From: Chloroflexota bacterium
GTDB lineage: Bacteria; Chloroflexota; Anaerolineae; Anaerolineales; Anaerolineaceae
Direction of reading: 5' to 3'
Assembly (NCBI GenBank): GCA_012797815.1
Contig: JAAZOK010000009.1
Span: 1-64,000, forward strand
Length of the DNA: 64,000 bases
The notes under the pieces were generated by a model that saw nothing but the letters and a program-made list of their open reading frames with translations, did not search any database and was not told the origin of the DNA. Within the stretch, counting starts at the first letter, position 1; the number at the start of each line of letters is the position of its first letter. The position numbers and the translations under genes were made by a program. Positions 56,518 through 61,384 of the stretch are shown one piece after another.

Positions 56518-57927
56518 ATGGATACATTCCTGGATCAATTATTTAATTTCGTCGATTTCTCTATCTCTCCGTTGGGATTAATCATCCAATCCCTGGTGCT
56601 CATCCTCATCACCCTGACCACGCTATCTTTGCTGCATGCCGCCCGCTCACAAATTGCAAAACGCGACCTGCAAGGCGCACGATCATCTCTCTATTGGGTT
56701 TTAGGGTTGCAAGTTGTGATGATCATCCTTTATCTCTCCTCCAGCCTGGGATGGTGGCAGATCTCAGCCCGAATGCTACCCGCTTCCCAGAATATGGTAT
56801 GGACGCTAAACCTGATCCTGGTAGGCTGGTTATGGTTTAAACCCTCACAGCGATCCCAGTTTTCAATCTTTAAGATGGTTCTTTCATTAAGTGCATTTGT
56901 TTTGTTCCTGCTGCAAGCATTTCAGGTCATTGAATTCGTCTTTTCACCACTTGAAATTTCGGTGCCATATGACCTGATATGGAGGGTTCTCGAATTTCTG
57001 ATAGGTTTCTTCCTTTTCTTCAGCTATATCAGCCACACCGATCATTTCATCTGGAGCAGTATCCTGTTCGTTTCATTGCACATAATCGGGCTGGGCATCC
57101 ATGCCATACTGACGATCCCCCCGCTCTTCGCAAAAGAACTATCCCAGGTGATCGCTTTTCTGTTCACCCCACAATTATTTCTGGCGCTTTCCTTTGATTC
57201 GCAGATTTTGGAGAAAAGACAGCAGAATATCCCGCTGCTGCTTTCGGAGAACGTGGCAGTCATCCCCCCCACGCAACTCATCAACGATTGGCTGCACACC
57301 GCCCTGGAAAATAACAGCCATATCCTGCCGCCCTACACTCTGTGTAAAGCACTGGCAAGAACATTCTTTGCGGATGCGTGTTTCATCATAGAAGCAGACA
57401 GCGCCGGTCACAACATCAAACTGCTGTGTGGTTTCATCCTGAAACCTCACAAACAGATCCTTCCGCGCGTCATTCAGAGCGAACATGAGATCATCATCCA
57501 ACAACGGTCCGTTCTCTACCACAACGCTGATTCCTATCCGCTTTGGATCAAAGATCTGCTCAACAGAATGCATTTTCCCAGAGCACAGAGCATCTGGTAC
57601 ATCCCTTTACCGATCAACCAACATCCTACTCTCTTGTTCCTGGTCTCTCGTAAATTACTATGGAACCAGGAACATATCGAAATGAGCAAGCATATCCTCC
57701 CATATCTGGTACAAATCTTGCAAAATTATTTTCAAGATGATCGGATAGTCTCAAAGAAAGAGGATCAGAGTACAGTTTCAACCAATCCATTCTTAGACCT
57801 GATGAAATCCGAAATTGATTACCGTAATGATCCGCAACACATTGAAGAAGAACTCAAATTGGCACTTGAAGAATATAATCGTATCCGTAAGATTCTTGAA
57901 GAACGAGGAATAGGACAATCATTGTGA
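56518..57927 (+). CDS. Membrane protein with seven-helix N-terminus and GAF-like domain, no output domain
   Basis: 469 residues, not recognised beyond its layout. About seven hydrophobic segments fill residues 18-225, like the membrane modules of some sensor kinases. Residues about 255-405 look like a GAF domain ('LCKALARTFFADACFIIEAD', 'IWYIPLPINQHPTLLFLVS'). The last 70 residues are charged and probably helical ('IEEELKLALEEYNRIRKILEER'). No kinase, cyclase, EAL or HD motif is present, so it would have to signal through a partner. The LCP gene overlaps its stop (GTGA), so the two are coexpressed. Confidence 0.72.
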   Translation: MDTFLDQLFNFVDFSISPLGLIIQSLVLILITLTTLSLLHAARSQIAKRDLQGARSSLYWVLGLQVVMIILYLSSSLGWWQISARMLPASQNMVWTLNLILVGWLWFKPSQRSQFSIFKMVLSLSAFVLFLLQAFQVIEFVFSPLEISVPYDLIWRVLEFLIGFFLFFSYISHTDHFIWSSILFVSLHIIGLGIHAILTIPPLFAKELSQVIAFLFTPQLFLALSFDSQILEKRQQNIPLLLSENVAVIPPTQLINDWLHTALENNSHILPPYTLCKALARTFFADACFIIEADSAGHNIKLLCGFILKPHKQILPRVIQSEHEIIIQQRSVLYHNADSYPLWIKDLLNRMHFPRAQSIWYIPLPINQHPTLLFLVSRKLLWNQEHIEMSKHILPYLVQILQNYFQDDRIVSKKEDQSTVSTNPFLDLMKSEIDYRNDPQHIEEELKLALEEYNRIRKILEERGIGQSL

Positions 57928-58955
57928 ATAAACACAATTCGCATCCGTTGATAACGATTTTTTCTGCGCTACTGATCATTTCGTTTTTAAGCGGTTGTTC
58001 AGCTACCCGGGCATTATTTGGCTTGGGGGGTGAGGCTACTCCTGAGATCCGTCTGCTGGCAGATTTGAGTGCAGACAAGAGCCTGGAACCCACACCTTTC
58101 CAGCCGTATGCCTATACTCCCACCGTAGAAGCAGCCGCACCGATCATCACCGATTCACTGGTGCCCAATGATGGGGTTTACAAACCTGCCGGGCAGATCA
58201 ACATTTTGCTGCTTGGTTCAGACTGGCGTCCGGATAGCGGATACCGCACCGACGTCATCATGTTGATCTCCATCTACACCAAAGAAGAAAAGGTCAGCAT
58301 CGTTTCTTTCCCGCGTGACCTATGGGTGACCATCCCGGGCGTTGGAGAACAGCGTATCAACACCGCGCAGGCTTATGGTGGTTTCCCCCTCACCCAGAAA
58401 ACTTTTGAATACAATTTTGGCACCAGCGTGGACCATTACATGATGACCAATTTCAACGGTTTTCTCAGCATCATCGATACACTGGGTGGCATCGAGATCA
58501 ACGCTGTCAGCAATCTATCTGATAGTTGTGACCTTTCTTATTCCGCAGAAAAATATTGTTCGGTCGGACCAGGTACCGTCAGTTTGGATAGCGAGCTGGC
58601 ATTGTGGTATGTTCGTTCACGGTATACCTCCAACGATTTTGATCGCACCCGGCGTGCCCAGGAAGTCATCATGGGCATCTTGAAGAAGATCATCAGCATG
58701 GATGGGGTCACCAATGCCGGGGAGATTTACAACACCCTCTCCAGCAGCGTGGTCACCGACCTGACATTGGGAGATATCGTCCCACTCATCAGCCTGACAG
58801 CCAAGATCATCAACGATCCGGGGCGCATTACCACCTACGCCATCGGTCAGTCGCAGGTCACCTCCTATGTCATGCCATCCAGCGGCGCGAATGTATTGCT
58901 TCCAAATTACAGCGCCATCTGGTCCATCTTAAAGACTGCTTTATTTACCCCCTGA
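57924..58955 (+). CDS. LytR-CpsA-Psr (LCP) family phosphotransferase, lipoprotein-like
   Basis: Attaches anionic or other lipid-linked polymers to peptidoglycan. 343 residues, GTG start overlapping the previous stop. A signal sequence with lipobox 'LSGC' (Cys25) is followed by a linker and the LCP domain (about 90-300): 'INILLLGSDWRPDSGYRTDVIMLISI', 'VSFPRDLWVTIPG', 'RINTAQAYGG' and 'WYVRSRYTSNDFDRTRRAQEV', with the conserved Arg and Asp residues that bind the pyrophosphate. Anchoring as a lipoprotein, rather than by an N-terminal helix, is less common for LCP. Confidence 0.92.
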   Translation: MNKHNSHPLITIFSALLIISFLSGCSATRALFGLGGEATPEIRLLADLSADKSLEPTPFQPYAYTPTVEAAAPIITDSLVPNDGVYKPAGQINILLLGSDWRPDSGYRTDVIMLISIYTKEEKVSIVSFPRDLWVTIPGVGEQRINTAQAYGGFPLTQKTFEYNFGTSVDHYMMTNFNGFLSIIDTLGGIEINAVSNLSDSCDLSYSAEKYCSVGPGTVSLDSELALWYVRSRYTSNDFDRTRRAQEVIMGILKKIISMDGVTNAGEIYNTLSSSVVTDLTLGDIVPLISLTAKIINDPGRITTYAIGQSQVTSYVMPSSGANVLLPNYSAIWSILKTALFTP

Positions 58956-58958
58956 TCC

Positions 58959-58987
58959 TTGACGAAATACGCATAACTGGATAAACT
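58959..58987 (+). promoter_or_regulatory. Promoter of the recombinase-like gene
   Basis: TTGACG (58959-58964), 17-base spacer, TAAACT (58982-58987). The Shine-Dalgarno sequence GGAGGG and the ATG at 59019 follow. Confidence 0.5.
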
Positions 58988-59018
58988 ATTTATATCTATA
59001 CGCAATATGGAGGGCGTG

Positions 59019-59936
59019 ATGCCATCGGATCCAAATAACATGCTTCATATCGATAAAGACACTTCCCTGCAGCCAGCCATGCAAGCCTGGCTGGTATACC
59101 TGCAAGACCAGAACAAATCCATCTACACCGTCAAGGCATTCGAAGGGGATCTGAAATTGCTTTCCGGTTTTTTACCTGCCGACAAAGCAGTAGGTGCCAT
59201 CACCACCCACGACTTGCAGCATTTTCTGGAATGGGTCAACAACGGGCGCGGGAAGAATATCCCCTGTTCGCCCAAAAGTTTGAGCCGCCGCATCACCACC
59301 GTCAAATCCTTCTTTAACTGGTTGTTCGCCAACGGTCGCATCCCCAACGATCCGGCAGAGAAGATCCTGCAAAAAAGCGTCATCAGCCCTGTGCCCGAAG
59401 TGTTAAATGAAGATGAGCAAATTCTGGCGCTGGCTGCCGCAGCGGAATGGTTGGAACAGGACCAACCCGATACCCGTCCCTATACGCTCTTCAAACTGCT
59501 ACTGGAAACCGGCATTAAAAAGAGTGAATGTTTGAATATTAAATTGCAGCATATCGACGAGAGCGATCCTGCCAATCCTTTCCTGTTCGTGCGCTATCCC
59601 GAAGCCAAAGATCGCAACAAAGAACGCAAGATCCCACTTTCAGGTGCCTGGTTGCAGCATTACAAACGCTACCTGGCACAGTACCAGCCCACCGATCTGG
59701 TGTTCCCCTGGTCACCCCGCCGGTTGGAATACATACTGGAAGATATCAGCAAAGCCGCCAATCTGGAAAAACACATTTCCTTCAGTATGTGCCGCTGGAC
59801 CTTTGCGCTGAATGATTTTCATAAAGGAGTGGACCACGATCTGATCCGCCAGCGTCTGGGTATTTCAAAGATCCAGTGGCGCGAGATCGTCATGAAATTG
59901 AGTCAACTGGCACGCGCCACACAGACAACGATCTAG
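59019..59936 (+). CDS. Tyrosine recombinase-like protein, catalytically degenerate
   Basis: 305 residues from the ATG at 59019 (GGAGG five bases upstream; an ATG at 59007 is less likely). Residues about 15-105 are a SAM-like core-binding domain ('MQAWLVYLQDQNKSIYTVKAFEGDLK', 'SLSRRITTVKSFFNWL') and about 125-300 follow the phage-integrase fold. The catalytic set is mostly gone: the first Arg is Lys167 in 'ETGIKKSECL'; the H-x-x-R motif is S-x-x-R ('SMCRWTF', Ser256, Arg259 kept); the 'LGHS' His is Ile in 'RLGIS'; and no Tyr nucleophile is seen in the final helix ('QWREIVMKLSQLAR'). It probably binds DNA but cannot recombine it. There is no associated mobile element. The stop overlaps that of tilS. 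Confidence 0.82.
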   Translation: MPSDPNNMLHIDKDTSLQPAMQAWLVYLQDQNKSIYTVKAFEGDLKLLSGFLPADKAVGAITTHDLQHFLEWVNNGRGKNIPCSPKSLSRRITTVKSFFNWLFANGRIPNDPAEKILQKSVISPVPEVLNEDEQILALAAAAEWLEQDQPDTRPYTLFKLLLETGIKKSECLNIKLQHIDESDPANPFLFVRYPEAKDRNKERKIPLSGAWLQHYKRYLAQYQPTDLVFPWSPRRLEYILEDISKAANLEKHISFSMCRWTFALNDFHKGVDHDLIRQRLGISKIQWREIVMKLSQLARATQTTI

Positions 59937-61384
59937 AATTTCACCTGGAGATGGAGCAGCCGGCGAGTATCCGGCTGCATACGTGTAAAATGTGCCGGTT
60001 GAAAACCGGCTACCCACACAATCGCATTTCCATTTTCCACTACCAACCAATGTTCCCGTACCTGTACGGGAATTTTTTTATTAATAAACAGGTCCGATAA
60101 TTTAACGCTCCTGCCCTGCATGCCCAGCGGTTGGAAGCGATCCCCGGCCCGGTAAGCACGCACATTCAGTATATCCGTTGGCAGCGCTTTCAGATCAAAG
60201 TAAGCCTCCCATAATAACCCAGCGCTTGTCTGTGGAGGTTGATAAGCCGTAAGAGGCACCACCTCCACCAGCAGTTCTCCGCCATCCTGCAGCGGATAGT
60301 TTTTCATATCTTCCACTTTGACATCAAATGCCTGCCGGCACTGCGGATACGTCCGTGTCAAGGGAAGAACAGCCAGGCGGCTCAAATAAAATTTGTTGCG
60401 AGCTATAAAAGCATGCAGCCCGGCGGGCAGGTCCATATGCCCGGCACGATTGGGATGCTGCGTGAAATGCAGCACCCGCAACACCGTGGAATGCTCAATC
60501 TGGGTTTCAGCCGGTGCCAGTGTCTGCATCCCTCGCCGGATGAGGGCTTTTTGTGCACCGTTTTTTAGGGATCTGAATTTTTCAAGTGAAAAGGATACAT
60601 AACCCTCGCCCTCACTGGTGTGGAATGTGTCGTAGAGCTGCTGATATTGATTTTCCAGAAAATCCCAATCTTCTTTTACGATCTCCGACAAATTGAGCAG
60701 GTTTTGTTGGACGGATGGATTATAACTTTGCAGAGCGGGGATCAGGCTATGGCGGATGCGATTACGGAAGTAACCCTGATCTTCGTTGCTCTCATCCACC
60801 CGCGTCTGCAGCTCATACTGCCGGCAATATTCTTCTATTTGTGTCCGCCACACTCCCAGCAAGGGGCGCACCAGCGGGATGGTCGGATGAAATGCACTGA
60901 TCGCACACGCAGCCATGCCGGTTAACCCACGTGTACCGCTGCCGCGCAGGATGTGCATCAAAACAGTTTCCACCTGATCATCGGCTGTGTGAGCGGTCAG
61001 CACCGCCCGGGCCTGGATGGTCTGGGCGGTAGTGAACAGAAAACCATAGCGCGCCTGCCGGGCAGCATCTTCCAGGGAGAGTTTCTGCTGTTCTGCCAGG
61101 TGGTGGATATCCGCTTTGCCGGTAAAAAAAGGAACGTCGAACTGTTCTGCCATATGCTGCACAAAATGACAATCCTGTGCAGAACCGGGGCGCAACTGGT
61201 GATCGAAGCTTGCCAGGGTTATATTGAAGTGTTGTTTGATCAACATATGCGCCAGTGCACTGGAATCCGGACCACCGGAAACCGCTACCAGCAGCACATC
61301 TGACCTGGAAAAACCAGCTTGCTGCAGCGCTTGCGCACACGTTCCATCGATTGCGGTCTTCACAATGCGATTATAGCATCGCAC
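59933..61384 (-). CDS. tilS: tRNA(Ile)-lysidine synthase
   Basis: Changes C34 to lysidine in the tRNA that reads AUA. 483 residues. PP-loop 'VAVSGGPDSSALAHML', 'FDHQLRPGSAQD', 'LTAHTADDQVETVLMHILRGSGTRGLTGM' and the C-terminal TilS domain ('RAYRAGDRFQPLGMQGRSVKLSDLFINKKIP') are complete. The start is the ATG at 61384, eight bases after the mutL stop. A GTG at 61363, six bases after an internal TGC-TATAAT, is a possible leaderless start that would remove seven residues. Confidence 0.94.
   Translation of the reverse strand: MRCYNRIVKTAIDGTCAQALQQAGFSRSDVLLVAVSGGPDSSALAHMLIKQHFNITLASFDHQLRPGSAQDCHFVQHMAEQFDVPFFTGKADIHHLAEQQKLSLEDAARQARYGFLFTTAQTIQARAVLTAHTADDQVETVLMHILRGSGTRGLTGMAACAISAFHPTIPLVRPLLGVWRTQIEEYCRQYELQTRVDESNEDQGYFRNRIRHSLIPALQSYNPSVQQNLLNLSEIVKEDWDFLENQYQQLYDTFHTSEGEGYVSFSLEKFRSLKNGAQKALIRRGMQTLAPAETQIEHSTVLRVLHFTQHPNRAGHMDLPAGLHAFIARNKFYLSRLAVLPLTRTYPQCRQAFDVKVEDMKNYPLQDGGELLVEVVPLTAYQPPQTSAGLLWEAYFDLKALPTDILNVRAYRAGDRFQPLGMQGRSVKLSDLFINKKIPVQVREHWLVVENGNAIVWVAGFQPAHFTRMQPDTRRLLHLQVKF

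Follow-up and report, generated by a model that had tools for sequence, protein, structure and literature searches.

The window, the whole stretch of 64,000 nucleotides analysed here, carries a gene of the tyrosine recombinase type whose product lacks most of the catalytic residues, and this locus raises the question of what a recombinase-like protein does when it is apparently unable to recombine DNA. The first-pass annotation took the gene to be intact and proposed that its product may be a DNA-binding regulator or a chromosome-organising protein. We consider it somewhat probable that the gene encodes a vertically inherited, non-catalytic DNA-binding protein which represses its own promoter through an element located there. 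The features of the locus are as follows.

57924 to 58955, forward strand: LytR-CpsA-Psr (LCP) gene, separate, upstream neighbour conserved within Anaerolineales only
58959 to 58964, forward strand: −35 hexamer TTGACG, found by scan, conserved in the genus
58982 to 58987, forward strand: −10 hexamer TAAACT, found by scan, 17 nt after the −35 hexamer
58996 to 59005, forward strand: promoter element CTATACGCAA (consensus CTAYRCGMAA), candidate autoregulatory operator, of which the 9-mer CTAYRCGMA is conserved in Anaerolineae
59009 to 59014, forward strand: Shine-Dalgarno sequence GGAGGG, favouring a start at 59019 over 59007
59019 to 59936, forward strand: dead Xer-type recombinase gene (305 aa, stop included), identified by Pfam, AlphaFold and orthologues
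59933 to 61384, reverse strand: tilS, convergent, downstream, conserved within Anaerolineales only

Counted from its first ATG, the open reading frame spans 59007 to 59936 on the forward strand. Since GGAGGG falls between the two candidate ATGs, within the codons of the upstream one, and this layout is kept in same-genus orthologues, the start at 59019, for which a good ribosome site had been noted in the first-pass annotation, is the likelier of the two. Residue numbers are counted here from the ATG at 59007 and exceed those of that annotation by four (Lys167 is K171, Ser256 is S260, and Arg259 is R263). The protein has both domains of the tyrosine recombinase superfamily, a SAM-like core-binding domain at about residues 20 to 110 and a catalytic-fold domain at about residues 128 to 300, each of which passes its Pfam cut-off (Phage_int_SAM_1, E = 1e-10; Phage_integrase, E = 2e-13), in line with the claim that the gene is full length and intact rather than a decaying copy. 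Its nearest sequence models are XerD and XerC, yet it stays far below both NCBIfam equivalog cut-offs, with 93.6 bits against 329.6 for XerD and 88.9 bits against 335.15 for XerC. PHROGs matches of the protein are integrases only, PADLOC gave no match for the gene, and Rfam gave none at the locus.

The AlphaFold model of the protein (mean pLDDT 94.7) presents a confident Xer fold, of which the structural match to PDB entries spans residues 12 to 309. The best match is XerA, with a Z score of 19.9 and a high rmsd that is probably due to a different domain arrangement; XerH bound to difH has a Z score of 19.5 and an rmsd of 3.6 over 279 residues, and MrpR, YopR and SroF are also found among the matches, with Z scores of 13 to 15. 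The two-domain fold is therefore shared over the whole length with XerA, XerC, XerD and XerH, from which the window protein differs in the low model scores given above and in the replacement of most of its active site. Residues K90, R94, R95, K100, R207, R238, L240, Y242 and R263 are invariant in 43 diverse orthologues, and we take them to sit in the helices and hairpin that contact DNA in Xer and Cre. Together, the fold and the invariant basic residues argue strongly for DNA binding.

When aligned to canonical XerD-type rows, the window protein was found to carry Lys at Arg-I, Asp at the catalytic Lys, Ser at His-II, Ile at His-III and Val at the nucleophilic Tyr. Of the seven active-site positions listed for MrpR, it thus keeps only two, Arg-II and Glu, and has lost five. 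Where a functional Xer active site reads R-K-H-R-[H/W]-Y, the protein reads K-D-S-R-I-V, and the loss is fixed across the family. The losses named in the first-pass annotation (Lys167, Ser256 and the missing Tyr, with Arg259 kept) are all seen in this alignment; the Asp that replaces the Lys is an addition to them, as is the conserved promoter element. All 123 aligned orthologues have Lys at Arg-I and Arg at Arg-II, and not one has His at His-II; Tyr is absent from the nucleophile column in all of the 34 most diverse orthologues. The comparison set, 36 other tyrosine recombinases of the same phylum, nearly all catalytically intact, has this Tyr in 36 of 36 cases, and the host genome itself encodes an ordinary recombinase, L031, with all catalytic residues, which serves as an internal control. 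The search for orthologues with intact catalytic residues thus returned none. In the AlphaFold model, one continuous helix (residues 288 to 308) lies where recombinases bear the nucleophile; the absence of a Tyr from the active site is a result of the sequence alignments and of the secondary structure of the model. Judged from the sequences, the loss of the active site is total and ancient, and the protein is predicted to be no longer able to cut or rejoin DNA.

The gene is widespread and mostly single. A match at E ≤ 1e-3 was obtained in 59 of 61 relatives, and about 55 of these hold strong near-full-length orthologues; at E ≤ 1e-20 the gene is recovered from 163 of 199 sampled Anaerolineae genomes, with one copy each save rare extra matches; and 70 of 301 Chloroflexota genomes pass E ≤ 1e-40, including groups outside Anaerolineae, whose sequences are more divergent. 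A very divergent member, L222, occurs in yet another family. The best 80 of at least 576 relatives cover cultured carriers such as Pelolinea, Thermanaerothrix, Bellilinea, Leptolinea and Ornatilinea. For the window gene paired with the orthologue nearest to it, dN/dS is about 0.04, a value taken from the nearest pair since remoter pairs are at or near synonymous saturation. In the phylogenetic tree, all dead sequences form one clade (support 100/96) in which the subgroups mostly track the family codes, and the clade is set apart by a long branch from every active sequence included, a position that does not tell whether it descends from a Chloroflexota XerC or XerD. An origin as a mobile-element gene was rejected: no close relative was found in IMG/VR viral contigs, phages or plasmids, the one IMG/VR match being weak (24% identity) and the phage and plasmid matches, at only about 23 to 27% identity, being XerC/XerD-type proteins or integrases. 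The gene is under strong purifying selection and is inherited mostly as a single copy without signs of mobility, and vertical inheritance is the best explanation of its distribution. No paper on this dead-recombinase family was found among open-access papers.

The surroundings are those of a housekeeping region rather than of a mobile element, as had been proposed, with the LytR-CpsA-Psr gene and tilS adjoining and a MutL gene next beyond tilS. The order LCP, dead Xer, tilS is kept in most Anaerolineales examined and altered outside them, where the same gene is found in a different neighbourhood; a role as operon partner of its neighbours was rejected on this ground. Conservation of the loss at the same locus, which the first-pass annotation had named as support for a new role, therefore holds within Anaerolineales, and, with the same gene retained elsewhere, a non-catalytic role of a conserved protein is well supported. 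As side observations, in family f82 (L068, L070, L071, L072, L073 and L078) the dead gene appears, by eye, near oppositely oriented ComEC-like and ComEA-like genes, and in the window itself a 469-aa protein without a Pfam match is encoded upstream in the same direction (56518 to 57927), which by eye resembles a membrane protein and seems to include a GAF-like part.

A good promoter had also been claimed for the gene, and the scan located it as TTGACG and TAAACT separated by 17 nt and conserved in relatives. At the genus level, the upstream regions read TTGACG-N17/18-TAnACT followed by TATCTATACGCAA or a close variant, and the core CTAYRCGMA persists in other Anaerolineales where the upstream DNA no longer aligns. 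CTAYRCGMA occurs in 99 of 112 Anaerolineae promoters of the dead gene, a count that is not independent because part of that set served to define the motif, and in 8 of 15 Anaerolineae outside the order where it was first seen, which is independent. It was found on the opposite strand in 2 of the 112 promoters, in 7 of 3499 random segments and upstream of 1 of 463 other ORFs. In 90 of the 99 motif-bearing promoters it is preceded by TTGAC-N16-18-TAnnnT, and its start falls at −2 or between +7 and +20 relative to the end of the −10 hexamer, close to where transcription is expected to begin. The element is missing from Chloroflexia-type orthologues, upstream of which only TATAAT-type boxes are seen. 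Where present, it is directional and, in 91 of the 99 cases, single; several promoters (L036, L166, L178, L181, L191 and L193) contain two direct copies of CTAYRCGMA, 12 to 19 bp apart.

The 10-mer is not enriched in this genome, where it occurs 49 times and the control 69 times; of the further copies examined there, almost all fall in coding sequence. In 16 genomes, TTGAC combined with the element gave 23 matches, 12 of which are the dead gene, and the controls gave 19. A regulon defined by the shared element was therefore rejected, since exact patterns in this genome and in the 16 genomes revealed no excess beyond the dead gene. Judged by exact matches, the element is private to the dead gene, which points to autoregulation, the best reading of such an element.

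A functional Xer site is a 28-bp dif with two inverted 11-bp arms. Being directional and single, unlike these inverted arms, the element could instead act in the mRNA leader or bind another protein. When the arms of E. coli dif (sequences from PMC3025954) are read outward from the core, the element agrees with the XerC arm at 8 of 10 positions and with the XerD arm at 7 of 10. This resemblance is weak and only a lead, because P is about 0.02 with register and strand free and dif arms are not independent of one another. An inverted partner arm beside the element was not above shuffles. Matches to a dif-like inverted site were at or below control overall in 37 genomes when sought with a palindrome derived from the motif, and dif sites of other sequence may occur.

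The closest precedent for mechanism, rather than close relatives, is provided by MrpR (YopR) of the Bacillus subtilis prophage SPbeta and SroF of phage phi3T (PDB 8A0A, 8BJ6, 9RD5 and 9RGL), which have the same tyrosine recombinase fold. MrpR has lost recombination, binds promoter DNA and represses through SPBRE sites, by which it governs about ten promoters (PMC10516654). Like the window protein, it lacks the catalytic Arg-I and both His residues, but it keeps Lys and Tyr, and the window protein has neither. MrpR and SroF are phage repressors, whereas the window protein is chromosomal and inherited across a class; a phage or prophage location with control of lysogeny is not what we found for its gene. 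Since structural alignments give only 11 to 12% identity, we claim no orthology to MrpR or SroF. By analogy, the window protein would bind the element CTATACGCAA at its own promoter by means of the invariant residues on its DNA-facing helices and, once bound, would repress or tune its own transcription, as MrpR does at SPBRE operators. The Crypton-derived, domesticated genes of animals (PMC3212892) are tyrosine recombinase genes likewise recruited to host functions; these are eukaryotic and of independent origin, and we set them beside the window gene as a parallel and not by sequence.

The complement of Xer proteins in the phylum bears on the alternatives. Some Chloroflexota groups (e.g., G262) have two strong XerC/XerD-type matches and many others have one XerD-like protein. 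By model search, the sampled Anaerolineales, among them G000, G021 and G047, gave no XerD-like match at E ≤ 1e-50 save one weak match. An L031-type recombinase is present in 42 of 61 relatives, its examined members hold all catalytic residues, and it might be the dimer resolvase of Anaerolineales. Apart from this, many of the single XerD-like Chloroflexota recombinases (L091, L092, L093, L096, L223, L224 and others like them) have the hairpin Lys replaced by R, Q, E, N or G with the Tyr kept, L096 also having Asn at His-III, and in several of these loci the match to the XerD model stops at about position 277 of 290. The 8.9-Mb Chloroflexota genome G509 has 53 Phage_integrase family matches.

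The chromosome-organising role raised by the first-pass annotation would make the protein a terminus-binding dead Xer which marks or shapes DNA at a few sites, autoregulation being a by-product. Such a role would suit a protein that mostly occurs once per genome, is common in Anaerolineae without attachment to a single operon, and is found in an order with hardly an XerD-like match, but the lack of a recurrent palindromic dif-like site above control and of any parABS, smc or ftsK link noticed among the clustered neighbours speaks against it, and we deem it unlikely. Of the two roles once proposed, the non-catalytic one common to both is well supported and the element favours (auto)regulation, while nothing specific to chromosome organisation was found. 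Doubtful, though worth considering, is a clade-wide, non-mobile dead Xer turned core DNA-binding factor of Anaerolineae, one that uses CTAYRCGMAA as a dif-arm-like half-site, autoregulates there, and acts at other places on the chromosome in lineages without a clear XerD match. If instead the protein regulated a distinct gene set including its own promoter, the other sites would have to be too degenerate for an exact 10-mer; MrpR with its several promoters, and our use of exact patterns, are compatible with this, but the matches of TTGAC plus element outside the dead gene are at control level, and we regard it as quite unlikely.

A non-catalytic partnership with an active Xer-like recombinase of the L031 family, in which only the active subunit cuts, would agree with the frequency and catalytic completeness of L031 relatives and with the two paralogues normal for bacterial Xer systems. 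The two proteins do not always occur together, however, since G007, G014, G017, G035 and G036 have the dead protein without L031 and a clear dead protein is missing from G026, G040 and G048, which carry L031, and the two genes are neither neighbours nor close in the tree, which renders the partnership very improbable. Decay of a recombinase gene, or a chance resemblance of fold, is suggested by the missing residues alone and is contradicted by the low dN/dS, the same replacements throughout the family, the strong Pfam matches and the confident fold, so that we give it practically no credence. Autoregulation by a DNA-binding protein is the reading we lean towards. If there are further targets, the combined layout of promoter and element is no commoner at them than expected by chance in the 16 genomes covered; with no regulon in sight, autoregulation does not account for the main function of the protein, which we count against our own explanation.

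The finding bears on the handling of chromosome dimers in Anaerolineales, where no clear XerD was detected. Dead tyrosine recombinases acting as repressors come so far from a few phages, and such a protein encoded on the chromosome, strongly selected and fixed throughout a class of bacteria, would, if true, represent the turning of a recombinase into a permanent DNA-binding factor of the host.
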